Below are positions 1,700 to 19,658 of a DNA stretch of 33,618 bases, piece after piece. Under the pieces are notes generated by a model. It saw only the letters and a program-made list of their open reading frames with translations. It did not search any database and was not told the origin of the DNA. Numbering within the stretch: position 1 is the stretch's first letter; the number at the start of each line of letters is the position of its first letter. Source of the DNA: a virus; the IMG/VR virus record IMGVR_UViG_3300015171_000019, positions 1 through 33,618 of that record, one strand, 5' to 3'. The position numbers and the translations under genes are program-made.

Positions 1700-2162
1700 C
1701 GGTTAAAAATCCTTCGTGAATCTCTACTATACGGTGAGATGCACTCCGCATTCTGTCGTTGATCCCGCAAGCCATTACGATGACTTCAACATCGTTGCAC
1801 TCGCGAAGCCTATGGATTAGTGGCAGATACTCGTGACCAGATGTTCCGATGACAATAACGTCTGACGCAGAACAATAGGCTTCGAGAGCGATTTCCACTG
1901 CCCAATCAAACGGCTGACCTTGAGAGCGCGGCTGCACAAACTTGGTATCCCAACCAATTCGCCGCAGAGACTTCTCAAATTCATTAACGCCTGGGTTGAC
2001 ATAGGTTCCATAGACTCTAGTTGTTCCTAATTTAGTCCCGAAACCTAATGCTGTATCAAGGAACTTCTTGTAGTTGAGTCTGCGACCTGGAAACTTTTTA
2101 TCTACACAATGAAAAAGTTGGCCAGAGTCACAGAACACACTAACAACTTTGTTAAGAACCAC
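1647..2162 (-). CDS. NYN-domain (LabA/DUF88-like) putative ribonuclease
   Basis: This gene encodes a PIN-like NYN protein. Near its N-terminus are VSVFCDSGQLF, then GRRLNYKKFL, RVYGTYV, a hydrophobic SASDVIVIGTSGHEYLPLI segment and VIVMACG. These are the acidic Asp strands and the (S/T)xx(D/E)xxPL signature of the family. NYN proteins are usually metal-dependent ribonucleases. In the first motif Asp-Ser-Gly replaces the common Asp-Gly-x-Asn, but the Asp is kept. The open frame extends to 2204 through a TTG, with an ATG at 2192. I chose GTG 2162 because the family core begins immediately after it and the overlap with nrdJ falls to 11 bases. This start is uncertain. It lies between ribonucleotide reductase and a phosphoesterase. 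Confidence 0.75.
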   Translation of the reverse strand: MVLNKVVSVFCDSGQLFHCVDKKFPGRRLNYKKFLDTALGFGTKLGTTRVYGTYVNPGVNEFEKSLRRIGWDTKFVQPRSQGQPFDWAVEIALEAYCSASDVIVIGTSGHEYLPLIHRLRECNDVEVIVMACGINDRMRSASHRIVEIHEGFLTDGSANRSSRSTIQVATP

Positions 2163-3792
2163 AGGATGCCCCGCCCTTAATCGTGCAAACATCACCGGCT
2201 TCAATGAAGACTTCGCCTTCTCCCTTAATAGCTTCGTCGTAACTTACTGCTGTAAGAGGCTGCCCATCACGAGCACCATCAGGATAGCAAGTAAGTCCTC
2301 GAAGCTTAGGAAGATAATTGATTAGCATCTCTCCGAAGGGAGTAACAGTGTTGTCATTATTAAACTTAGATCCCCAAGCTGGAAGATTAACAGTCGAAGA
2401 AATTGCATGGTCAACATACTGCTGCACCCAAGCTTGGAAAGCAACTCTGCGCTCAACATCTTCTGCTAGTGAGTAAGCATCTTCAATCTTACTGACACTG
2501 ATTCCATTTTCAATAAGTCGCTTTGCAGTAGGATCAATGACATACTGAAACTGGAACGTGTTGCCCTTAAGATAACGACGCTTCATCGCAACGCAGAAGA
2601 TCGGTTCGATGCCAGTTGTTGTCTCTGCTACGATGCCAATAGTTCCAGTAGGTGCAATAGCACGAGTTTTCTTAGGCTTGCTAATGTCCCACTGTTCAGC
2701 AAAGTCAGCAGCAATAGCAGTAGACTTGGCGTAAATCTTGAGATATTCTTCTAACTCAGGATCTGGACCATACTTCTTTCCACGCTTGATTAACCACTCA
2801 TGGATTCCCATCAAACCAAGACCAAGCCGACGATTCTTGCTACGAACTTGGTCTACCTTAGGATACGGGACATCGCTGTAGACTGTACCGGCAAGTAGAA
2901 ATGCTGTAGACTGCTTGACGAGAGCCCGCATCTGGTCAAGCGAGTTGATATTCGCCATATTGATCGAGCCGAGATTACAGATATCGGAATCGTCTGCTGT
3001 AGTAATCTCGCAGCACGCATTCCTGAGATCCTCTCCAGCATTAGGCCCAACATCAATACTGAACCCAGGCTCAGCTTTCTTAAGCATCTGACGAACAGTA
3101 TCCCAATAGACAATTTGGGCTAGTCCGTGCTTTTCGTGATCTTCATCATGATAAGCTTCAAAGAACTCATCATTCAAAACAACAGAGATATTAGTTCCAT
3201 CGAGCGTGGCAGGGAATGCGTATTCCTTAGCCTTTAAAGCCCTAACATCAGGAGACCAATCCTTGATATGAATGAACTTAATTATATCAGGATGATCCCA
3301 TTGAAGTCCAGCCCAAATTGCCGATCTTCTAGAGCCGCCTTGCATAATAAATCTACCAGCTTCATTAACCATCTGCATCAGTGCAAGTGGTCCAGTAGAC
3401 TTGCCGCCAGTCTTCTTTATAACCTTTCGCTCGCCACGCACTCCACTATATACAACACCGATACCTGCTCCAGTCATTAAAGCAAGTGTCGCCTTATACA
3501 TAATTTCCGACCAGCCTTCACGACTATCATCAGCTCTAAGTAGAAGGCAATTCTGCACTTGATGGAATTGGCGACCAGTAGCATAAAGATATCTGCCACC
3601 TGGAATGAACTCTTTATTAGCAATATTTTGTTCAATAGCTTTGGTAAGATCATCTCTGGCACGAACAGCGCGCATAACATTACTGCTTACACGCTTAGCA
3701 AGTTCACCCCAAGTTTCTTTACGCTTCTCAACATCGTGAGCGTATTTCTCTTCAAAGATTGTTTTTGCCCAAACACTGTTAAAATCGCTCAT
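2152..3792 (-). CDS. nrdJ: Adenosylcobalamin-dependent (class II) ribonucleotide reductase
   Basis: A 546-residue catalytic subunit that would convert ribonucleotides to deoxyribonucleotides for phage DNA synthesis. Visible motifs: FIPGGR (62-67), the redox Cys in QNCLLL (C82), NACCEI (258-263) giving the radical-site pattern Asn-x-Cys-x-Glu, ICNLGSIN with the partner Cys C272, PTGTIG, and TTGIEPIF. A C-terminal pair (C536, C544) fits the swinging thiols that are re-reduced by thioredoxin or glutaredoxin. There is no ATP-cone domain, and the length is short, as in monomeric phage NrdJ proteins. No small subunit gene is nearby, which supports class II. The gene starts two bases after the stop of the VRR-NUC gene. 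The identification is firm; a class Ia subunit is unlikely given the tail motif. Confidence 0.93.
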   Translation of the reverse strand: MSDFNSVWAKTIFEEKYAHDVEKRKETWGELAKRVSSNVMRAVRARDDLTKAIEQNIANKEFIPGGRYLYATGRQFHQVQNCLLLRADDSREGWSEIMYKATLALMTGAGIGVVYSGVRGERKVIKKTGGKSTGPLALMQMVNEAGRFIMQGGSRRSAIWAGLQWDHPDIIKFIHIKDWSPDVRALKAKEYAFPATLDGTNISVVLNDEFFEAYHDEDHEKHGLAQIVYWDTVRQMLKKAEPGFSIDVGPNAGEDLRNACCEITTADDSDICNLGSINMANINSLDQMRALVKQSTAFLLAGTVYSDVPYPKVDQVRSKNRRLGLGLMGIHEWLIKRGKKYGPDPELEEYLKIYAKSTAIAADFAEQWDISKPKKTRAIAPTGTIGIVAETTTGIEPIFCVAMKRRYLKGNTFQFQYVIDPTAKRLIENGISVSKIEDAYSLAEDVERRVAFQAWVQQYVDHAISSTVNLPAWGSKFNNDNTVTPFGEMLINYLPKLRGLTCYPDGARDGQPLTAVSYDEAIKGEGEVFIEAGDVCTIKGGASCGS

Positions 3793-4774: not shown

Positions 4775-5114
4775 GTTTTGTTAACTCCGCGAGCAATGTT
4801 GCTCGGTCTAAGTGATGATACTTCGCGATACCTTTTTGACGAGCTAGTATCCGAAGTGAGTAGACAGTTAATGCACTTAAGTCTGACTTGGTTTGTGCAT
4901 CAAACCAAGCCAAACACTTCTCTCGGTCACAGACTTTAACTAACGTTATGAACTCAGTTTTACTTGTCTCTGATGCTTTAAGCCAAACTTCATCAAATCT
5001 GTCATTAGCTACAAGCCGATATATTGCCCTTATATTAAGGGATCGTCTGTAGCATAATTCTTTAAGTTGCACTGAGTTCACTTTGCGCCCCAACAAGAAA
5101 GAAACAATTTCCAT
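4764..5114 (-). CDS. Hypothetical protein with SAP/Rho-N-like C-terminus
   Basis: A 116-residue basic protein. The last 35 residues (LTVYSLRILARQKGIAKYHH, then LDRATLLAEL) match the helix-extended-helix pattern of SAP, HeH or Rho-N domains: a Leu-rich first helix, an Arg/Lys-Gly-Ile turn and a second helix ending in Leu-x-x-x-Leu. Such modules usually bind nucleic acids. The N-terminal 80 residues are unrecognised. The ATG lies inside the last 37 bases of the DNA polymerase gene, so it is translationally coupled to it. A role with the polymerase is plausible but unproven. Confidence 0.7.
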   Translation of the reverse strand: MEIVSFLLGRKVNSVQLKELCYRRSLNIRAIYRLVANDRFDEVWLKASETSKTEFITLVKVCDREKCLAWFDAQTKSDLSALTVYSLRILARQKGIAKYHHLDRATLLAELTKHAS

Positions 5115-7645
5115 TTGATGCCGAGTAACGGAATAAGTGACTTATATTCCTCAACAAACGCTTCGGCTATTTGCTTAGACCGCTTGGCTAGTTTTCTCAT
5201 TATGGGACACATCAACTCATCATGGATGTTCATTGGACGCACATGCCATTTATGAATGCCACATGGTTGGAGTGCCCAAAGACGATGTTCAAGAATCTTA
5301 GTAAGTTCAGCCCCTGTACTTTGGATTTTATGATTCCCCGCTGCCCGCATATTGGCACCTTGAAGTTGAAACATGGCTCCAAAGATAGCAGACTGAACAG
5401 CCCCTGATGCTGACTGTTCTCTGTCCTTACGCATCACTTTGAATTTGAACTTTCGCCAAGCGGGCGGCGGTTTTTCACCTAAGTCAAAAAGAGCTTTACA
5501 GATCATGTTCTCAAGAGTAAAGAATCTCTTGAATCCAAGCATCGATTCAACAAAGTCCCAAGGATCATTCCACTCAATCCTTGTTCCGATGCCACCTGGT
5601 TGACGTGCAGGACAGTACCTATCGTAGAAAACTTTACGCTTCTGATCCATAACTGGATACCGGCGCATAATCTCTTGATAGGCTGCTTCACCAAGAACCT
5701 CATCGATATTAAGACGAGATGCTAGAGTGAAAGCGTTTCCAAAGTAAATAAGCGCAAAGAAAGCAGACTTTGCACGAGTGTACAAGTCAACATCCGCGCC
5801 GTCAGTATCAATGATCTCCCAATAAGTCTTGGGCTTATAGACCATTGATCCAATGATTGCGTGGATCTTTACCTTGACAGGCTGCCCCTTCTCATCAAAG
5901 AGAGGTTTTCCATCTCGACCAGTCGCTTGAGAAATTAAATCCTTGTGTAGTTGAGGATCTTCATAGTAAGCATCGGCAATAGTAACCTCGAATGCGTCGA
6001 AGTCACCACCTACTAGAATCTCCTCCTCGCTTTCACCATCACTGAATTCTTTACAAACTGGACAATGACATCGTGCCGCGATGCGTGGAGGTAGTTCTAG
6101 ATATCGAAGCATACCATCAGTAAAGGCTATTTGAAACTGAGCTTTAACAAGCTTCTTCTTCTGGATACCTTGCGGGTTGATTGAGCCTGCTTTACCTTTA
6201 GTATGCTTGTGCTTCTTTTTCTTCTTTGCAGAATTCTTCTTGCCTCTACTCTTGCCGTCAGTGTTGCCGCCACCTGATTTACGTCCAGACCTGGCACCGA
6301 TGACATTGAAGTTAGCGTGAAGTCTACCTGCAATAAGAATCTTGTCGTAAAGTTCTTCTTCTTTCTTTGCCTTCTTAGATCCTAAGCAACCATCTGCTCG
6401 GATAGCAGCTTCTGACGGTTCAGTTCCTGTTCCTTTACATCTAGAACACTTCTCAGCCTTGCAACGACATTTCTGCTCATTGCAGTGAACAAACTTCTTA
6501 CCTGCACACTTGACGCAAACCTTGTCGTCTATTCTTTGCTTGGCAATTTCTTCAAGAACTTGCTTCTTAGTGCTAGGTCTCCCGTGCTCATCTTCGAGAC
6601 ACATCTTTTCTTCTTCCGAAAGAACTTCGGAAATATATGTCATGATTCTTGCAGGATGAATAGGAAAAAGAAGCTTCTTTTTAGCAGCTTTCTTTCTTAG
6701 AACTTCAATGCCCTTGAGATTAACAGCGTATCCCTTAAGGCGACCAGAACCTACGGCAATAGCTAGTTCAGAGTCGCGATCACCGAACTCAGGACAGCCC
6801 CACTTCTTCCACATTCTAATTGGAAGTGTAACATCTCGTTCAGCATACTTCCTAGCAAGTTCATTGTATATCCAATGAGTAATGTGATGTTGAGCTACTT
6901 CACACCATGCATTATTCCATTTACCTGGCTTACCAACAGCTGTAGCAAATGGAGCATAGGCAAACTCAGTAGGGAGAAATTTGTCTTGAATCTTGATATC
7001 AGCGTAGACAAGCGATTCTGACTCAGGAATCTCTAATGCATCAGTGGCTAGAGCCTTCATCCCGCCATCAGGTGCAAAGCCTAGCTCAAGATGAACAAAG
7101 TCATTGTCTAGAGGTATATCGATAATGCGCCAATGGGAAGTTGATTGCTTAGCCTTCTTAGCAAAGAAAATAGGTCTGAGCATCAACCTCTTTTCAAGTT
7201 CCTCTGCAAGTAAAGGAGCAAGTATACGAGGCACTCGTCGAATCCTAATTGGATCTCGACTCATCAAATTTTGATACGGACCTTTACGAGCATGAAGCAT
7301 AAGATCAAAGGCTTTAACTGGACGAAGACATGCCCCATCTCTAGCCAATTTCTCGGCAACACCCATATCATCAATAATGTCTATAGGATATGCGTCTGGC
7401 GGAAGAAGCTTAAGAGTATTATAAGTCTTACTCACGTGGAAGTGATCGAAGGCCAAATTAAAGCCTAGGACACCTCCCGGATGATGTATGATATATTCGA
7501 TAATTTCTAAAGTGTCTTTGATCTTTTCTGTGAAAATGCTATGTAAATTAACTGGCTTAGTTTCATCACCCGAATCCGACCATTGTAAGAGACACATTGC
7601 TCCGTGGAAACCTATGGTCTCGCTGTCTAAAGTGATGAAACTCAT
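5078..7645 (-). CDS. Family A DNA polymerase with 3'-5' exonuclease domain and zinc/lysine-rich insertions
   Basis: An 855-residue replicative polymerase of the PolA type. The N-terminus is a DEDD exonuclease: LDSET (6-10) and GFNLAFDHFHV (61-71). The polymerase motifs are motif A GGDFDAFEV (546-554, Asp548), motif B with K626, F630 and Y634 at the spacing of E. coli K758, F762 and Y766, and motif C NIHDE (806-810). Two insertions are unusual. Residues 377-403 hold seven cysteines in DnaJ-like CxxC knuckles. Residues 451-498 split the conserved GARSGR...NPQGIQ segment with a Lys/Gly-rich stretch including five lysines in a row. A further CHCPVC (526-531) lies just before motif A. Phe630 predicts good discrimination against dideoxynucleotides by analogy. 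It follows an HNH gene with an ATGA overlap. Confidence 0.93.
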   Translation of the reverse strand: MSFITLDSETIGFHGAMCLLQWSDSGDETKPVNLHSIFTEKIKDTLEIIEYIIHHPGGVLGFNLAFDHFHVSKTYNTLKLLPPDAYPIDIIDDMGVAEKLARDGACLRPVKAFDLMLHARKGPYQNLMSRDPIRIRRVPRILAPLLAEELEKRLMLRPIFFAKKAKQSTSHWRIIDIPLDNDFVHLELGFAPDGGMKALATDALEIPESESLVYADIKIQDKFLPTEFAYAPFATAVGKPGKWNNAWCEVAQHHITHWIYNELARKYAERDVTLPIRMWKKWGCPEFGDRDSELAIAVGSGRLKGYAVNLKGIEVLRKKAAKKKLLFPIHPARIMTYISEVLSEEEKMCLEDEHGRPSTKKQVLEEIAKQRIDDKVCVKCAGKKFVHCNEQKCRCKAEKCSRCKGTGTEPSEAAIRADGCLGSKKAKKEEELYDKILIAGRLHANFNVIGARSGRKSGGGNTDGKSRGKKNSAKKKKKHKHTKGKAGSINPQGIQKKKLVKAQFQIAFTDGMLRYLELPPRIAARCHCPVCKEFSDGESEEEILVGGDFDAFEVTIADAYYEDPQLHKDLISQATGRDGKPLFDEKGQPVKVKIHAIIGSMVYKPKTYWEIIDTDGADVDLYTRAKSAFFALIYFGNAFTLASRLNIDEVLGEAAYQEIMRRYPVMDQKRKVFYDRYCPARQPGGIGTRIEWNDPWDFVESMLGFKRFFTLENMICKALFDLGEKPPPAWRKFKFKVMRKDREQSASGAVQSAIFGAMFQLQGANMRAAGNHKIQSTGAELTKILEHRLWALQPCGIHKWHVRPMNIHDELMCPIMRKLAKRSKQIAEAFVEEYKSLIPLLGIKWKLFLSCWGAK

Positions 7646-8121
7646 AGGATGTCCTTATAAGACTCTCTGTTAAGTATACGCTTAACAACAGACCTATTAA
7701 CCCAATTAAGCCTAGCAATTTGTTCTTGAGTTAATCCTTGAGTATGTTGAAGACGAATAAGCCTTACTTGGTCAGCAGTAAGCGATGCTTGGTAGTTCTT
7801 AGTGCTAGTTATACTAATAAAGTCTTTCTTTCCTCTATGTTTGACTGCCCGATCCCATGCATTAGACTGATCGCTACCTTTAGTTAAGTATTTCGGATTA
7901 CAACAAGGAGGATTATCGCAAGTATGCATTACAATGTCTGGTCCAGCATCTTCTTTGCTTATAGCAAATGCAACTCTATGAGATCCAAGCATCTGATTAT
8001 TAATCCTGAACCAACCATACCCTTTAATATTGTGTGAAGCTTTCCATGGCCAACACTCATCTTCTGATCTAATATCAACTTTAGACCAGAAGCGAGCGAT
8101 ATCTGACTCGGATAACTTCAT
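7642..8121 (-). CDS. HNH homing endonuclease (HNH_3 type) with C-terminal helix-turn-helix
   Basis: A 159-residue free-standing endonuclease. The N-terminal half has the HNH_3 layout: CWPWK, GYGWFRI, SHRVAFAI, then VMHTCDNPPCCNPKYLTKGS, with His66 and the Cys cluster of the zinc-stabilised fold. The usual His in the CxNPxHL motif is Tyr here (NPKYL), which could weaken activity. Residues 113-157 form a helix-turn-helix of the type used by homing endonucleases for site recognition (LTADQVRLIR, then GLTQEQIARL). It is inserted exactly between the first parB-like gene and the polymerase, sharing ATGA or TGATG overlaps with both. This is typical of mobile endonucleases that settle next to essential replication genes without disrupting them. 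Confidence 0.9.
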   Translation of the reverse strand: MKLSESDIARFWSKVDIRSEDECWPWKASHNIKGYGWFRINNQMLGSHRVAFAISKEDAGPDIVMHTCDNPPCCNPKYLTKGSDQSNAWDRAVKHRGKKDFISITSTKNYQASLTADQVRLIRLQHTQGLTQEQIARLNWVNRSVVKRILNRESYKDIL

Positions 8122-9008
8122 CAGTCACTCAGTGCTGTTTCAGGAACCCCATCACCAGGAAGCTTAAAGACTCTACCTTTACCCTGCTCGTAAAGGATAT
8201 TCTGGATATCGTTGCCGAGATCATAAGATGAAACAAATCCGGCTGCCCATCCAAGAACACGAGCGGCAATGTGATCATCTCCAAGGACTTCCTGCAAAGC
8301 ATCTTGCATCAATCCAATATCGTTCCGATCACGGGCCTTACCAGTTGCGAAGACACTTTTCTCTTTGACAACTTTAACTGTCTTCTTCTTGAGATCCTTA
8401 AGACTACCACGGTTACCCTTGAGCTTCCAATCAATAGCTGCTCGGCAAGCAGTCATCTGATCTTCACGGCTGCTCATACTAGAGATCTCAAGAATTTGAT
8501 GCTGAGTAAGCATTCCAGCGGCGGCCCTTTGCTGAATCTCAGGAGGTAGTCTGAGGATGCAAACTCTAACTTGCACCCAAGGCCGAAGAACACCTAGTTC
8601 CTTACTAATACGTTCCTGAGTCCATCCAAGTTCATAGAATCGCTTAAGGGCAAGCGCCTCTTGGAGAATGTTAAGACTCTCACGCTTAACGTTCTCAGAG
8701 AGATTAAGAACGAAAGCCTGTTCAGCCGAAAGATGGTCATGAACAATGCAATCGATGGTATCTGAATCTTTGACGTTGCGCTTGTTCAGAACCCTCTTAG
8801 CAAGATAGCGACGATGACCGCAAATGATACGATACTTATATCCATCCTTCCACGGTTGGATAATGATGGGTGCGAGGAGACCTACCTTCTCAATATCATT
8901 AGCCAACTCCTGCACGCTGGCAGGAGTAATGTGTCCTCGACAGTTGAACTCGTCATCGGATAAGATATCCGACAACGGTACTCGAATAATCGCCTTCGGC
9001 TCACTCAT
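8121..9008 (-). CDS. ParB/Spo0J-like nuclease-fold DNA-binding protein (first of three)
   Basis: A 295-residue ParB-like protein. The N-terminal domain has the box IICGHRRYLA (62-70), the CTP-binding-type Gly-x-Arg-Arg motif, followed by NLSENVKRESLN (102-113). A helix-turn-helix follows (WTQERISKELGV then WVQVRV, about 129-148). The rest is a mixed helical region with a basic linker. ParB family proteins bind centromere-like sites and spread using CTP; phage homologues also act as nucleases, transcription regulators or methylation-linked factors. No ParA ATPase is visible in the window, so plasmid-like partition is not supported. The start is ATG 9008 with an AGGAG site. It is the first gene after the tRNA cluster. 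Confidence 0.88.
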   Translation of the reverse strand: MSEPKAIIRVPLSDILSDDEFNCRGHITPASVQELANDIEKVGLLAPIIIQPWKDGYKYRIICGHRRYLAKRVLNKRNVKDSDTIDCIVHDHLSAEQAFVLNLSENVKRESLNILQEALALKRFYELGWTQERISKELGVLRPWVQVRVCILRLPPEIQQRAAAGMLTQHQILEISSMSSREDQMTACRAAIDWKLKGNRGSLKDLKKKTVKVVKEKSVFATGKARDRNDIGLMQDALQEVLGDDHIAARVLGWAAGFVSSYDLGNDIQNILYEQGKGRVFKLPGDGVPETALSD

Positions 9009-9228: not shown

Positions 9229-9298
9229 TGACACGAAGTGGACTTGAACCACTACTACAGGATTGGTATCCAGTTTTCTAATCTTAAAATATCGTGTC
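9229..9298 (-). tRNA. tRNA, anticodon uncertain
   Basis: The acceptor stem GACACGA/TCGTGTC (seven perfect pairs), discriminator A and T arm AGTGG-TTCAAGT-CCACT are canonical. The D arm is TTTT-AAGATTAG-AAAA and lacks the usual GG. The anticodon stem ACTGG/CCTGT has a T-T mismatch and an eight-base loop ATACCAAT, so the anticodon could be ACC, TAC or CCA depending on register. The gene is 70 bases long. I call it tRNA-derived without assigning an amino acid. Confidence 0.65.
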
Positions 9299-9639: not shown

Positions 9640-9676
9640 AATCAAGACGCCGCCGCACGAACGAGGGAAAGTTAGA

Positions 9677-9770
9677 TGGAGTCGGTGGGAATCGAACCCA
9701 CGTGATGAAGCAGTTTCAAAAACTACGTCTACGTGTGTTAGTGAATTTATCGTCTACACAAAGACTATCC
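9677..9770 (-). tRNA. Atypical tRNA-Gln (TTG)-like gene
   Basis: The 3' half is good: anticodon arm GTAGT-TTTTGAA-ACTGC (9710-9726) reads TTG, the T arm is GTGGG-TTCGATT-CCCAC, and the 3' acceptor strand CGACTCC is followed by discriminator A at 9677. The 5' half is abnormal. The best partner strand is GGAtaGTC ending at 9770, which needs a two-base bulge. The D region is enlarged, with a TGTGT/ACACA stem and a seven-base direct repeat CGTCTAC (9726-9732 and 9751-9757). A canonical 5' end is not visible, so this may be a tRNA pseudogene or an interrupted gene. Confidence 0.5.
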
Positions 9771-9782
9771 TGATCTTAACCA

Positions 9783-9830
9783 GGCAATCGAGTGGATTCA
9801 GCCACCATTAGTCAGTCTTCCCTGACTGCC
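9783..9830 (-). ncRNA. 48-base acceptor/T-arm-like minihelix
   Basis: On the minus strand GGCAGTC pairs with GATTGCC over seven pairs including a G-T wobble. On the plus strand the same position would be an A-C mismatch, which suggests the minus strand is the RNA. Next to the 3' strand is a GGTGG...CCACT hairpin with loop CTGAAT, placed like a T arm. There is no room for D and anticodon arms. Its function is unknown. Confidence 0.4.
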
Positions 9831-10044
9831 ATCTAGTTGTGAACTAGCAACTTAATCCTTGGGTGTGCTCGTTAGGATTAGACGAGAACGGAAGCGCCGC
9901 AAAGAATCTCGGCATCTTCCATCGAGAGGCTGTTAGGAAAGCTATTCGCAGATACATTTTGATAGATAAGATTAACGAGGCCAACTATCATCCTCGGCAC
10001 GCAGTAGTAATCTCCACTACCCATTCGATACCAATTCGACCCCA
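9831..10044. other. Stretch without a convincing gene
   Basis: Between the tRNA cluster and the membrane-protein genes I find no tRNA and no convincing gene. A 65-codon rightward frame (GTG 9863 to 10060) and a 55-codon leftward frame (ATG 10045 to 9878) are both open on opposite strands, and neither has a ribosome binding site. Either could be real; I cannot choose. The promoter for the leftward tRNA cluster could lie here, but no clear -35/-10 pair is seen. Confidence 0.4.
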
Positions 10045-11451: not shown

Positions 11452-11823
11452 CTAATCAGTGCTGCATCCCGACTTTGCAAACTTGGGCTTAGTCTCGGCG
11501 CAATCAGTAGCCGTGTAGACTCGGTTCTTCTCACGGACAAATCCGTTAACCTTGAACTCGTAGCCCTCTCCCTTGATGGAGAGAACCTTGTTAGTGTCAA
11601 AGCATCGATAGTCGCTAGCACCAGTGTCGTAGATGCTTTGCAGATTCTTGTGGTCCTTGATCGTGCTTTCGCCACCCTTGAGATGCTTTCGCACGTCGCG
11701 CCGTCCAGTCATCTCGCGAAGCGTGCCATCCTTCTTCTCAAAGATAACAGTGAACATATGCGAACGCGGAATCTCAGCAAGAAACTTACGGGCCTTCTTG
11801 CCATCAAGATACTCTCTGCTCAT
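11452..11823 (-). CDS. Phage SH3-like beta-barrel protein, nested in frame in the ParB-like gene
   Basis: A 123-residue protein from an internal ATG (MSREYLDGKKARKFLAEI) that carries its own AAGGAG site six bases upstream. It has the pattern of a small conserved phage protein: MFTVIFEKKDGTLREMTGR, RKHLKGG, a YDTGA segment, then YRCFDTNKVLSIKGEG. In other phages this protein is free-standing and begins at the equivalent of this Met. Codon choice changes at this point, with many more C- or G-ending codons than the parB-like part upstream. I therefore think it is expressed separately, even though the upstream frame runs into it with no stop. The role is unknown; it may be abundant. Confidence 0.75.
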   Translation of the reverse strand: MSREYLDGKKARKFLAEIPRSHMFTVIFEKKDGTLREMTGRRDVRKHLKGGESTIKDHKNLQSIYDTGASDYRCFDTNKVLSIKGEGYEFKVNGFVREKNRVYTATDCAETKPKFAKSGCSTD

Positions 11824-12561
11824 TTTGCTCTCCTTAATGGATACTTTTGTGTAACTACAAACAGTATGGCTACTGTTAAGAATAATAGGACTCTTGTCTA
11901 GATTACGTTTTTGAATCTTTTCAGCACGGATCTCTTTAATTCTTTGATGCACAAAGTTTGCGAAGTCTTTTGCGCATAGACTAGCAGTCCCTGTAGACAT
12001 CTTCTCTTGGTCAGACTTAGGAAGCTTTGCTAGGTAGTAAGCATTATTGAGAGTGATTTGATTTGCTTTGACAAGCTTAACTGCTCCAGAACAAAGCCTG
12101 TCACCTGTAAGAAGCCTAATAATCACATCGGGTTCAACACAGATTCGCTCACACAAATCACTGAGACTCATAAAGTTGTGTGAAGCAATGATTCTTAGCA
12201 GATGTTTCTTATACTCATAAGGCTTAATCGGGACTCTGTGCTGACTAGAGACGATTTGACGATAAAGAACTTCTTGGTCGCTAGCCTCGGTCACTTCGAC
12301 ATTAATCGTTGTTAGTTTGAGAATACGACACGCGATAAGCCTATGAAGCCCATCAACAACCTCATAGAGTCGCTTACCATTTTCGTGCATCCTAGGTGTC
12401 TCGCCGTCCAAGTAGAACAATGGACGAACGAGAAGCGGAGTCATCAGACCATATCGCTGAATAGACAACTTAAGCTGTTTGAATTCGTTGGACTCAATAT
12501 AGACTTCTCTCAACGAAACCGAGCCTTCGATGACTTGTTCAATGCTTACATTCGTCAACAT
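11452..12561 (-). CDS. ParB-like protein (second of three), reading in frame into the SH3-like protein
   Basis: Starts at ATG 12561 (MLTNVSIEQVIEG) behind AGAGGAG; the longer frame to 12606 lacks support. The frame encodes 369 residues. The ParB-like part has YEVVDGLHRLIACRI (the ParB box as Asp-Gly-x-His-Arg), then KPYEYKKHLLRII and a helix-turn-helix region. These correspond closely to VDGLHR and KPFEYSQHLVRIL in the third ParB-like protein, so the two are paralogues. From about residue 247 of this frame the sequence becomes the SH3-like protein, which has its own start. Either a natural fusion with an internal start exists or a stop codon between two genes has been lost. Without the fusion the ParB-like part would be about 245 residues. 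Confidence 0.8.
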   Translation of the reverse strand: MLTNVSIEQVIEGSVSLREVYIESNEFKQLKLSIQRYGLMTPLLVRPLFYLDGETPRMHENGKRLYEVVDGLHRLIACRILKLTTINVEVTEASDQEVLYRQIVSSQHRVPIKPYEYKKHLLRIIASHNFMSLSDLCERICVEPDVIIRLLTGDRLCSGAVKLVKANQITLNNAYYLAKLPKSDQEKMSTGTASLCAKDFANFVHQRIKEIRAEKIQKRNLDKSPIILNSSHTVCSYTKVSIKESKMSREYLDGKKARKFLAEIPRSHMFTVIFEKKDGTLREMTGRRDVRKHLKGGESTIKDHKNLQSIYDTGASDYRCFDTNKVLSIKGEGYEFKVNGFVREKNRVYTATDCAETKPKFAKSGCSTD

Positions 12562-12689
12562 CACATCTCCTCTTTTGTAGATGAGAGTTTGCGGAACCGG
12601 CGACAAAAGAAAGGATACGCGCCCGCGTAATGGAACGCAACGTAAATGCCTGTTGCAACATCACTTACAATTGTCAAGTGTTCTTTTGG

Positions 12690-14981: not shown

Positions 14982-15000
14982 TGTTAGGTATTACCTAACA
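14982..15000. promoter_or_regulatory. Inverted repeat upstream of the helicase gene
   Basis: TGTTAGGT-ATT-ACCTAACA is a perfect eight-base inverted repeat, with a partial extra copy of the half-site (CCTAAC) beside it. It lies between the stop of the first HNH-AP2 gene and the helicase ribosome binding site. The shape fits an operator for a dimeric regulator; a hairpin with a three-base loop is also possible. Confidence 0.45.
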
Positions 15001-15004
15001 ACCG

Positions 15005-15499
15005 CTACCCTTTAATAGTTTGACCAATAAATTCGCCAAAGACTTCTTGTGCAGCAACTATATACGCCGCCGATGCTTCCTCAGGAGAAGCAAATGTTCC
15101 TAGATGGATTGATTTACCTTCAACACCTATTTTACCTACATAATTTCCATTAGACTTAGGATAGACACCCCTATAACCAGTCGGATTGCGCGCACCTAGT
15201 GAAGAATTTTGCCTAGTCTGAGTCCTAGTCGCTGCACGTAAATTTGATCTTGTATTATTTCTAGTGTTTCTATCTCTATGATCGACATCATCACTTATAT
15301 CTATATTAGACCGTTCAGCTACTTCTCGATGCATATAGATAAAATGAGAGATCTTTTGTTTGCGTCGCGGCAATCTTCTTACAGCATATGTCTTCCCATT
15401 ACAATTTCTTGCGGACCAATTAAATCCGACAAGCCAGTAGTAGTCTTCTTCATCTACGTCAACAGTTGAACCATCACTTAAATAGATCTGCTTAATCAT
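15005..15499 (-). CDS. HNH-AP2 homing endonuclease directly after tRNA-Ser
   Basis: A 164-residue HNH endonuclease with an AP2 DNA-binding domain. N-terminal signature: MIKQIYLSDGSTVDVDEEDY and WLVGFNWSA. The HNH core is YMHREVAE, then DVDHRDRNTRNNTRSNLRAA. The AP2-like part is TGYRGVYPKSNGNYVGKIGV, followed by HLGTFASPEEASAAYIVAA. Family alignment fixes the start at ATG 15499. That ATG lies one nucleotide after the discriminator base of tRNA-Ser, so there is no room for a ribosome binding site outside the tRNA. The second HNH-AP2 gene has the same arrangement. These are mobile endonucleases that spread by cutting an unoccupied allele. Confidence 0.88.
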   Translation of the reverse strand: MIKQIYLSDGSTVDVDEEDYYWLVGFNWSARNCNGKTYAVRRLPRRKQKISHFIYMHREVAERSNIDISDDVDHRDRNTRNNTRSNLRAATRTQTRQNSSLGARNPTGYRGVYPKSNGNYVGKIGVEGKSIHLGTFASPEEASAAYIVAAQEVFGEFIGQTIKG

Positions 15500-15500
15500 A

Positions 15501-15587
15501 CGGATGAGGAGGGAGTCGAACCCACACAACCCTCACGGGCTACTTGATTTCAAATCAAGGGCGATGCCAATTACGCTTTACCCATCC
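15501..15587 (-). tRNA. tRNA-Ser (TGA)
   Basis: An 87-base type II tRNA: acceptor GGATGGG/CTCATCC with one G-T pair, discriminator G, anticodon arm CTTGA-TTTGAAA-TCAAG reading TGA, a long variable arm GCCCGTGAGGGT, and a T loop TTCGACT. No CCA is encoded. The HNH-AP2 start codon follows one base after the discriminator. Confidence 0.93.
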
Positions 15588-15598
15588 AAATAAGATGC

Positions 15599-16158: not shown

Positions 16159-16673
16159 TATTTAGCCACCAGAATATAGGTCTCATCGTCAAGCCATTCT
16201 TTCTTGAACATAACCCAACACTCGCCTAATGAATTACGTTCAAACCAAAGCATAAGCTTCATGCCAAGTATCCGAGTATTTTTGATGGCTGACTCTGAGA
16301 GACACGCAAGAAGGAAAAAGTACCATTGGTACATCGACCCTGATGCAATAATACTTTGACATTCCAGCCCTTGGGTTATCGTAACTTCAATGTGCTTAGT
16401 TGGCAAGTCGCCAAGTGTTTCCTTATCACAAACAACTAAAAAGCCTACGTATACATGAAGACCATTAGAGTAGTCTCTAAATGCCTTAAGTGCATCTGTC
16501 CCTGGCTTACGAAATTCCTTAGTTACAGGTATAAATGCAGCTTGCCCTACAGGAGAGAGGTTCTTAGCATCAAGGGATGCTGAGCACGATCTTCCAAGGG
16601 CTTTCTCTGCACCAACTAAGAAATTGTCCCAATCAATCTTTGTTGAGATGATTGGCATAAATTCAGGGATCAT
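16158..16673 (-). CDS. Hypothetical protein, 171 aa
   Basis: Begins MIPEFMPIISTKIDWDNFLV and is not a family I recognise. It contains a hydrophobic stretch (MYQWYFFLLACLSESAI) within an otherwise soluble sequence, and a C-terminal MLWFERNSLGECWVMFKKEW. The ATG is 11 bases after the 3' end of tRNA-Gly, with only a weak AGG as ribosome binding site. It forms a short operon with the next two genes. Confidence 0.72.
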   Translation of the reverse strand: MIPEFMPIISTKIDWDNFLVGAEKALGRSCSASLDAKNLSPVGQAAFIPVTKEFRKPGTDALKAFRDYSNGLHVYVGFLVVCDKETLGDLPTKHIEVTITQGLECQSIIASGSMYQWYFFLLACLSESAIKNTRILGMKLMLWFERNSLGECWVMFKKEWLDDETYILVAK

Positions 16674-17741: not shown

Positions 17742-18203
17742 TTAGCTAGATATTTGTCCAATAAATTGTCCAAACAATACTCTGGCTGCTTTCTCATAAG
17801 CTATTGACGCCTCTATTGCAGTTGGAAAATAGCCTAAGAAAGTTCTAACAGAGTCTTTGTATATCTCAGCACCGTATGCGTGACCAGATGAACTAATTGA
17901 GACTCCTTTGTATCCAGATGTATTATTGGAATACATTGAAGTATTCATTTGATTTTGAGAACGGGTTGCTGATCTTAAATTAGATCTTTGGCAATTAAGT
18001 GAATTTCTGTCTATATGGTCTATCCTACCTTGTAGACCCATTAACTTAGCAATTTCAATGTGAAGGATTGCATCTATACCACGAACCCTACGTTTTGCAT
18101 ATTGGTGCTTATTTGTGTATGCACACCAGTTAAAGCATCCAAACAAATACCAATCTTCATCTACTTCAACAAGTGAACCATTGCTAAGTATAATGTGTTT
18201 CAT
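17742..18203 (-). CDS. HNH-AP2 homing endonuclease directly after a tRNA-like sequence
   Basis: A 153-residue homologue of the HNH-AP2 protein at 15005-15499. It begins MKHIILSNGSLVEVDED, with the HNH core ILHIEIAKLM, then RIDHIDRNSLNCQRSNLRSA, and the AP2-like part SGYKGVSISSSGHAYGAEIY, followed by FLGYFPTAIEASIAYEKAA. It ends FGQFIGQISS against FGEFIGQTIKG in its homologue. Family alignment places the start at ATG 18203, one nucleotide after the discriminator base of a tRNA-like sequence. The frame stays open upstream through that sequence, but the extra 16 residues are not family-like. No ribosome binding site is visible outside the tRNA-like sequence. Confidence 0.87.
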   Translation of the reverse strand: MKHIILSNGSLVEVDEDWYLFGCFNWCAYTNKHQYAKRRVRGIDAILHIEIAKLMGLQGRIDHIDRNSLNCQRSNLRSATRSQNQMNTSMYSNNTSGYKGVSISSSGHAYGAEIYKDSVRTFLGYFPTAIEASIAYEKAARVLFGQFIGQISS

Positions 18204-18204
18204 A

Positions 18205-18273
18205 TAGCTTCCAAGGGAATCGAACCCTAAATAGCCCCGACTAAGATGCAACGCACCTTAGACTGCCAAAGCT
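18205..18273 (-). tRNA. tRNA-like sequence with intact acceptor and T arm, anticodon unresolved
   Basis: On the minus strand AGCTTTG pairs with GGAAGCT over six positions, the discriminator is A, and the T arm is AGGG-TTCGATT-CCCT. Between them are 36-40 bases that fold as CTAAG...CTTAG with an inner TGC/GCA stem, not as separate D and anticodon arms. The total is 69 bases. It is either a degenerate tRNA or a diverged one; no amino acid can be assigned. The HNH-AP2 ATG follows one base later. Confidence 0.5.
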
Positions 18274-18277
18274 TCCA

Positions 18278-18502
18278 GCGGATTTATCTCAACCAGAACC
18301 GCTTACAATCTGGTTGGATGCCTACTACCTTAGCTTATCTCAGGCATATCACAATAAGCTAGGCCAGGTTTTAGGAGGAGGGCCACCTCACTCGCTCGAT
18401 TAAGGAGACATAAGCCCCCTTTCATCACAACACCACACTAGCTAAAAATGTGTGAGAGCTTTCACTCGCGAACGAGTCAGTAGCTCCAATAATGCTAGTG
18501 TG
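18278..18502 (-). ncRNA. Gene-free stretch rich in hairpins with 6-9 bp stems
   Basis: No reading frame here is convincing. The strongest structures are CAACCAGA/TCTGGTTG (18290-18316, with TTGTAAG inside the loop on the minus strand), AGCTTAT/ATAAGCT (about 18331-18360, competing with ATGCCT/AGGCAT), and a 69-base element at 18434-18502. That last element is closed by nine perfect pairs CACACTAGC/GCTAGTGTG and contains GAGCT/AGCTC and ACTCG-TTCG-CGAGT stems. These may be decayed tRNAs or another structured RNA. Confidence 0.45.
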
Positions 18503-18503
18503 A

Positions 18504-18566
18504 TAACGGTGAGTGGAGTCGAACCACTCAGAAGTAAAGGCGGAAACTTCCACACCAATACCGTTA
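18504..18566 (-). tRNA. D-armless tRNA-like sequence
   Basis: The acceptor strands TAACGGT/ACCGTTA pair perfectly and stack directly on a six-pair T arm GAGTGG-TTCGACT-CCACTC. The anticodon-type arm is GAAGT/ACTTC with a ten-base loop TTCCGCCTTT. Only nine bases (ATTGGTGTG) stand where the D arm should be, so the whole is about 63 bases. It resembles truncated mitochondrial tRNAs more than phage ones. The anticodon is not clear (CCG, CGC or GCC). It may be a pseudogene. Confidence 0.5.
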
Positions 18567-18623
18567 ACAGTAACTTTTGGGCAAGAGTTACCAACTTTTA
18601 TTACCCGTTACCGGGTAACTGCT

Positions 18624-19658
18624 TCAATCAGAGTCTCCCGACTCCTCATCAACCTCAGCCTCGGGCTCCTTACCGGCAGCCAGATCAGCCTTGGCCTTGT
18701 CAGCGCGCTTCTGAGCATTCTCAGCAGCAGCCTTCTTGGCCTCAGCCTTCTTCTTGGCCCGATCAGCCTCGTACTTGGCCCGCGACTCAGCCACCGAAGC
18801 CTCATCCATGTGAACGAACCACTTGAGGGCAAAGAGAGCCGCCTCAACCGGATCGGTGATGCCGCTTGCCTTGACAAGCTGCGGGATGATGTTCGGCTTC
18901 TCGTACTCAGCCTTGACCTCGCCAGGCTTACGGAGGTGCGGAACAGCGACGAACTGAACCTCGCCAGGCTTCCGACCCTCACGCTTGGCCGCGCGAAGCT
19001 GCTTGATCCGCTCCTTAACAGCCGGAACGAACGTCTGAGGCTGCTCAGACATCGCACGATCAACGAATGCGATCTGCTCAGATGCAGGCTGAAGCTTGGC
19101 TAGCTCAACAGCATTGGAGACGGTAATCTTCTCCTCATCGACAAGCTTGCCAACCTCAGGATCGAGATTAACAAGACCGAGCCGCTTCTTGAGCCAAGCC
19201 GAGTCCATCGTGAGCCGATCAGCAAGCTCGTCAATGGTGCAAGTCTGATCGCGCATGAGGATTCGCACAAGGTGCTGCGAATACTCAAACGGCTTCGTCT
19301 CGATCTTGTGCGCGTTAGCGATAAGCTGGTCAGCCATCGCCTGAGCTTCGGTAGCCTTGAGAACCTGGGCCGGAATCGACTTGAGTCCAGCTTCACGGGC
19401 TGCCGTGACACGGTGCAGACCGTCAACGAGACGGTAGACCTTATTACCATTCGAGTCAGTCTTAGGCTCGCCCTTGGCGTCCAGCGCGTCCATCACCGAG
19501 ATGGCGGACAGGATACCTACGTTGCGAACCGAGTCCACAAGGCGCTCGAACTTTGCATCCTCAAGATCTACCTTGCGGAGAGCATTCGGGTTGTCCTCGA
19601 TATTGGCGAGGTCGATGTGGAGGAGAAGGTTCTTCTCAAGAGCGTGGGTCGTTGACAT
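18624..19658 (-). CDS. ParB-like protein (third of three) with charged C-terminal tail
   Basis: A 344-residue protein. The ParB-like fold shows VYRLVDGLHRVTAAREAG (74-91, box Asp-Gly-Leu-His-Arg), KPFEYSQHLVRIL (122-134), a helix-turn-helix CTIDELADRLTMDSAWLKKR (140-159) and NAVELAKL. From about residue 285 the sequence is Lys/Ala/Glu-rich and probably a long helix, ending in an acidic stretch EVDEESGDSD. It is a paralogue of the second ParB-like protein. Codons are strongly biased to C and G endings, unlike the other two parB-like genes, so it may be strongly expressed or of different origin. It is the first gene leftward from the divergent control region, with GAGGAAA ahead of ATG 19658, and no ParA is nearby. 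Confidence 0.87.
   Translation of the reverse strand: MSTTHALEKNLLLHIDLANIEDNPNALRKVDLEDAKFERLVDSVRNVGILSAISVMDALDAKGEPKTDSNGNKVYRLVDGLHRVTAAREAGLKSIPAQVLKATEAQAMADQLIANAHKIETKPFEYSQHLVRILMRDQTCTIDELADRLTMDSAWLKKRLGLVNLDPEVGKLVDEEKITVSNAVELAKLQPASEQIAFVDRAMSEQPQTFVPAVKERIKQLRAAKREGRKPGEVQFVAVPHLRKPGEVKAEYEKPNIIPQLVKASGITDPVEAALFALKWFVHMDEASVAESRAKYEADRAKKKAEAKKAAAENAQKRADKAKADLAAGKEPEAEVDEESGDSD

Follow-up and report, generated by a model that had tools for sequence, protein, structure and literature searches.

An HNH-AP2 endonuclease gene in a phage contig starts one nucleotide past the 3' end of a tRNA-Ser gene

Results

The start codon lies flush with tRNA-Ser

How could a gene be translated when its start codon stands directly against the 3' end of a tRNA? 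The question is raised by a putative homing endonuclease gene, HNH-AP2 gene 1, in a virus record of 33,618 bases, which was analysed over its whole length and is referred to here as the window. The gene lies inside a co-directional gene string, flush with the 3' end of a tRNA-Ser gene. The features at the junction are as follows.

15501–15587, minus strand: tRNA-Ser(UGA), with its 5' end at 15587, discriminator G73 at 15501 and no encoded CCA (ARAGORN, a sub-threshold Rfam match and stems read from the sequence)
15500–15500, minus strand: a single T (U in RNA), the base after the discriminator, between tRNA-Ser and the start codon (from the sequence)
15005–15499, minus strand: HNH-AP2 endonuclease gene 1, 164 aa, without a Shine-Dalgarno (SD) sequence (Pfam HNH_3 above the cut-off and AP2 below it; start placed by alignment)

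On the minus strand the junction reads ...GGGTTCGACTCCCTCCTCATCC-G(15501)-T(15500)-ATG(15499), leaving a gap of 1 nt between a complete tRNA and the start codon. An earlier note on this DNA had placed the discriminator at 15501 and the ATG at 15499, and this geometry is borne out by the sequence and by ARAGORN, whose call (15500–15588) is one base wider at either side. By reading, the acceptor strands GGATGGG/CTCATCC pair at 7 of 7 positions, the anticodon arm CTTGA-TTTGAAA-TCAAG has a fully paired stem (5/5) and a UGA anticodon, the variable arm is long and the T-loop is TTCGACT. The sole Rfam match was tRNA-Sec, sub-threshold at 34.6 bits (15502–15587), which we take to reflect the long variable arm of a class II tRNA.

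The product of gene 1 scored above the Pfam cut-off for HNH_3 (28.7 bits against 24.8). Its C-terminal AP2 match (E 7e-6, 26.6 bits) fell under the cut-off of 33.3, and tblastn matches in phages span this AP2 part. The N-terminus, MIKQIYLSDGS, aligns from residue 1 with that of a paralogue in the same contig (MKHIILSNGS) and with several phage homologues. ATG 15499 is therefore well supported, as the earlier note had held in regarding it as fixed by the family N-terminus. The only in-frame start upstream is TTG 15529, inside the T-arm. That the annotated start is wrong, with translation beginning at this TTG or further downstream, is extremely improbable; the TTG is in frame, but ATG 15499 is where the family N-terminus starts, translation from the TTG would read through the T-arm, and the GAGGG preceding it has no spacing and is not a usable SD. 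Just past the stop codon of gene 1 lies a palindrome, GTTAGGTATTACCTAAC (14983–14999).

No SD sequence was found before gene 1, in agreement with the earlier note. The anti-SD duplex energy at ATG 15499 was +0.7 kcal/mol. This was the weakest pairing among the 30 real starts scored across the window; an SD motif was present at 18 of the 30. The upstream stretch CCCTCCTCATCCG looks like an anti-SD rather than an SD. Non-SD starts also occur elsewhere in the contig. No minus-strand promoter-like match was found close enough upstream to put a 5' end at ATG 15499; the closest was at 16186–16157, and the number of such matches was not above chance.

A near-leaderless message could arise by tRNA 3' trimming

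None of the seven tRNAs of the contig encodes CCA, which fits endonucleolytic 3' maturation, and U is the next base in six of the seven. In precursors that lack CCA, the RNase Z cut falls immediately 3' of the discriminator; in bacteria the enzyme is inhibited by CCA (PMC7479834). Given the missing SD, the missing CCA and the U after the discriminator, cleavage by an RNase Z-type enzyme would leave U-AUG at the 5' end. In leaderless translation, 70S ribosomes start on an AUG that is 5'-terminal or nearly so, and the RNA must carry a 5' phosphate (PMC9031893). Gene 1 would thus be transcribed together with tRNA-Ser, and a host RNase Z-type enzyme would cut after G73, maturing the tRNA and releasing a 5'-phosphate U-AUG message on which 70S ribosomes could start. 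The uncut transcript would be translated poorly because its start lies beside the tRNA fold, and low, processing-dependent expression of the nuclease would be tolerated. We infer that a near-leaderless message made through tRNA trimming is the likeliest translation route for gene 1; that 5'-P-U-AUG RNA cleaved after G73 may well be the main template is put forward tentatively.

The chief rival to trimming, possible though somewhat unlikely, is that ribosomes initiate weakly on uncut RNA without an SD, the tRNA fold then braking expression so that the nuclease stays scarce. Start-site RNA structure is known to hold down T4 I-TevI, I-TevII, I-TevIII and segB and Aeh1 mobE (PMC2988022), and the non-SD starts elsewhere in the contig are compatible with such initiation. 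The T4-type cases, however, have a hidden SD where gene 1 has none, and rapid folding and cleavage of tRNA-Ser are expected; both points argue against initiation on uncut RNA.

The paralogue follows a tRNA-like element at the same spacing

The contig has another HNH-AP2 gene, and this one, which the earlier note did not mention in this connection, is also preceded by tRNA-like sequence.

17742–18203, minus strand: HNH-AP2 endonuclease gene 2, 153 aa, a paralogue of gene 1 with 46% identity in alignment (Pfam HNH_3, alignment)
18205–18273, minus strand: tRNA-like element with a T-arm and an acceptor-like 3' strand, ending 1–2 nt before gene 2 (T-arm motif at the 12-nt gap)
18504–18566, minus strand: second tRNA-like element; its acceptor pairs perfectly over 7 bp and it has a T-arm, but no normal D or anticodon arm (Rfam tRNA-Sec, sub-threshold at 17.6 bits)

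The sequence directly upstream of gene 2 is TAGGGTTCGATTCCCTTGGAAGCTAT-ATG, and the T-arm motif GGTTCGAYTCC stands exactly 12 nt before the ATG of both HNH-AP2 genes. All remaining minus-strand copies of the motif lie in a tRNA or tmRNA with one exception, at 18525 in the second tRNA-like element. For any given start, the probability that the motif would stand at one of five gaps ahead of it is ~1.3e-5. Counting against the trimming route, a weak GGA lies at SD distance before gene 2 (anti-SD -3.3 kcal/mol).

The element at 18205–18273 is not a normal tRNA. It was not called as a tRNA by ARAGORN with default settings, by ARAGORN with introns permitted or by Rfam, whose only hit was a non-significant one to mascRNA (14.7 bits, E 2.2). 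An intron-containing tRNA was considered at this position and rejected: ARAGORN had to be run at a very low threshold to produce it, and clearly spurious calls came with it; its short acceptor partner was no better than in shuffles (43%). The element stands at the end of a 420-nt intergenic region (18204–18623, minus strand, T-arm at 18226) whose fold is much stronger than that of shuffled sequence (z -4.3). The second element folds at -20.8 kcal/mol, with z -3.1 relative to mononucleotide shuffles. The region is possibly a new structured RNA or a decayed tRNA cluster, and the two elements could be either decayed tRNAs or maintained tRNA-like elements. No DNA relatives of the locus were found in phage records, and hence neither an empty site nor covariation for the structured region was available. 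Close IMG/VR relatives were likewise not found for either HNH-AP2 protein or for the neighbouring helicase.

The matching spacing raises a broader reading, in which tRNA-Ser and a dedicated non-tRNA 't-element' before gene 2 would both serve as processing signals that give near-leaderless messages for the two nuclease genes, a phage form of tRNA punctuation. We regard this extension as unlikely.

Starts abutting tRNAs are avoided in other viruses

IMG/VR was searched for a pattern of T-arm, 11–14 nt and ATGA. Among the 128 matches listed, 78 lay in ARAGORN tRNAs or tmRNAs, and 29 of those 78 opened ORFs of at least 60 aa. The proteins at the abutting starts among these listed matches were diverse (portal, phosphoesterase, metallopeptidase, RNase H-like, HAD, endonuclease VII and HNH), and abutment was seen after CCA-encoding tRNAs too. 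On the minus strand of one tRNA-rich viral contig (L126), several ORFs, one of them phosphoesterase-like, start on the A of the encoded CCA (CCATG).

An unbiased scan of gaps from 11 to 41 nt yielded 49 tRNA-ORF pairs. Gaps of 11–15 nt occurred in four of them, none with an SD, and gaps of 26–35 nt in 28. Distances from the discriminator to ATG-started ORFs of at least 80 aa were then collected for 908 viral tRNAs that had not been used for selection. Four starts fell 1–4 nt after the discriminator and three at 5–8 nt, against a plateau of ~11 starts per 4-nt bin at 13–32 nt. The seven starts at 1–8 nt compare with ~23 expected from the plateau (p ~1e-4), and the depletion at 1–4 nt alone has p 0.01. 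Starts within 8 nt of viral tRNAs are thus depleted, as expected if such junctions translate badly. An apparent peak at 0–3 nt in a first count came partly from loci chosen for HNH genes beside tRNAs; it vanished once the selected tRNAs were removed and distances were taken from the discriminator. Starts at 1–4 nt followed 1 of 429 CCA-less and 3 of 479 CCA-encoding tRNAs. Abutment is therefore not commoner after CCA-less tRNAs, and RNase Z processing does not account for abutting starts in general. Both the depletion and this count weigh against the trimming route. The earlier note had seen a possible strategy in a mobile gene that makes its mRNA through tRNA maturation. As a general claim this finds no support, abutting starts being depleted, and a lack of enrichment in other phages was an outcome that the note itself had said would refute it.

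A targeted scan (T-arm, 10–40 nt, ATG, HNH motif) returned 15 distinct real HNH ORFs. Three of these (in loci L235, L216 and L225) start within 6 nt of the tRNA, and the others start at 13–27 nt, often with an SD. The earlier note had suggested counting HNH starts near tRNAs against chance, and no enrichment emerged: HNH genes were not significantly closer than other genes (3/15 against 6/67 within 6 nt, p 0.35). The same kind of scan for a T-arm and an HNH motif in prokaryote genomes gave one real case (L347), with an SD. Two flush HNH cases turned up unselected in unrelated viral loci. In L096 the CCA of tRNA-Leu is followed at once by ATG, and the HNH gene (4804–5460) stops 1 nt before tRNA-Gln, filling the whole space; in L230 the HNH gene lies 1 nt past tRNA-Arg. 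Comparable genomes thus did not show the arrangement as a regular feature or more often than normal spacing would give. In these surveys an HNH gene abutting a tRNA is an occasional layout and not a general strategy of such genes.

These counts bear on two further readings of the junction. Phage tRNA regions are compact, and the spacing could be chance packing around a gene that is poorly expressed or decaying. The many unrelated kinds of gene that abut tRNAs, and the avoidance of starts 1–8 nt past them, agree with this, but the ORF of gene 1 is intact with a full HNH_3 domain and its paralogue has equal spacing; we consider packing with little or no expression quite unlikely. Alternatively, the tRNA 3' end could be an insertion target that the nuclease recognises, the gene inserting there and carrying or rebuilding the tRNA 3' end, with the remnant before gene 2 as a footprint. 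The equal T-arm gap in both paralogues would suit insertion, as would the HNH genes found between tRNAs in L096, L213 and L222. No flanking duplication was seen and no empty site was found, however, and most HNH-AP2 relatives lie away from tRNAs, making an insertion target very unlikely. As for how the tight junction itself arose, it is most simply seen as the product of compact packing or of insertion at the tRNA boundary.

Other features of the contig

A phage-borne tmRNA lies beside the tRNA cluster at 9674–10043 (minus strand; Rfam 90.3 bits, E 4.6e-34); it does not encode CCA and was missed by ARAGORN. ARAGORN also missed a tRNA at 9229–9298 (minus strand; Rfam 46.1 bits), which has an A+T-rich D arm and is followed by T-ATG-CAG-CGG-TAG, a chance mini-ORF. 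Three ParB-like ORFs, one with a WYL_2-type domain, are encoded on the minus strand (8121–9008, 11452–12567 and 18624–19658). The ribonucleotide reductase (2152–3792, minus strand) is 64% identical to that of the Acidobacteriota phage Tunturi_3, the closest among the phages listed, and this likeness suggests an Acidobacteriota host. In a synteny comparison with Tunturi_3, the reductase was the only gene in common.

Discussion

We class gene 1 as a free-standing gene of the HNH-AP2 homing type that neighbours a tRNA, a known kind of arrangement with an unusually tight junction. It shares with phage HNH-AP2 (HNH_3 + AP2) free-standing endonucleases the N-terminus, the size and, as far as the sub-threshold AP2 match shows, the domain order, whereas the annotated phage relatives examined sit between protein genes with no tRNA adjoining. 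The closest likeness in layout is to T4 segB, a mobile endonuclease gene that is surrounded by phage tRNA genes of the same orientation and is regulated at the RNA level (PMC2988022). Gene 1 is likewise an endonuclease ORF directly beside a tRNA gene, here tRNA-Ser. The two differ in that segB is a GIY-YIG gene and starts ~41 nt past tRNA-Ile with a late promoter and a ribosome binding site, whereas gene 1 encodes an HNH-AP2 protein and starts flush with its tRNA.

In animal mitochondria, tRNA punctuation is genome-wide and established. The likeness to gene 1 is that the tRNA is followed at once by AUG, where endonucleolytic tRNA processing would give a leaderless mRNA (Ojala 1981, cited in PMC8280776). 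Human mitochondrial mRNAs are leaderless (PMC9881170). The phage differs in that one or two junctions are concerned, in a genome with SD-using genes, and in that cleavage and translation at them are putative.

If the trimming route holds, expression of a mobile nuclease would be tied to tRNA maturation, giving a bacterial counterpart of mitochondrial tRNA punctuation. If it does not, the locus still illustrates cleanly how a mobile gene can be packed against a tRNA, and the survey counts indicate that a start codon in that position is seldom tolerated by phages.
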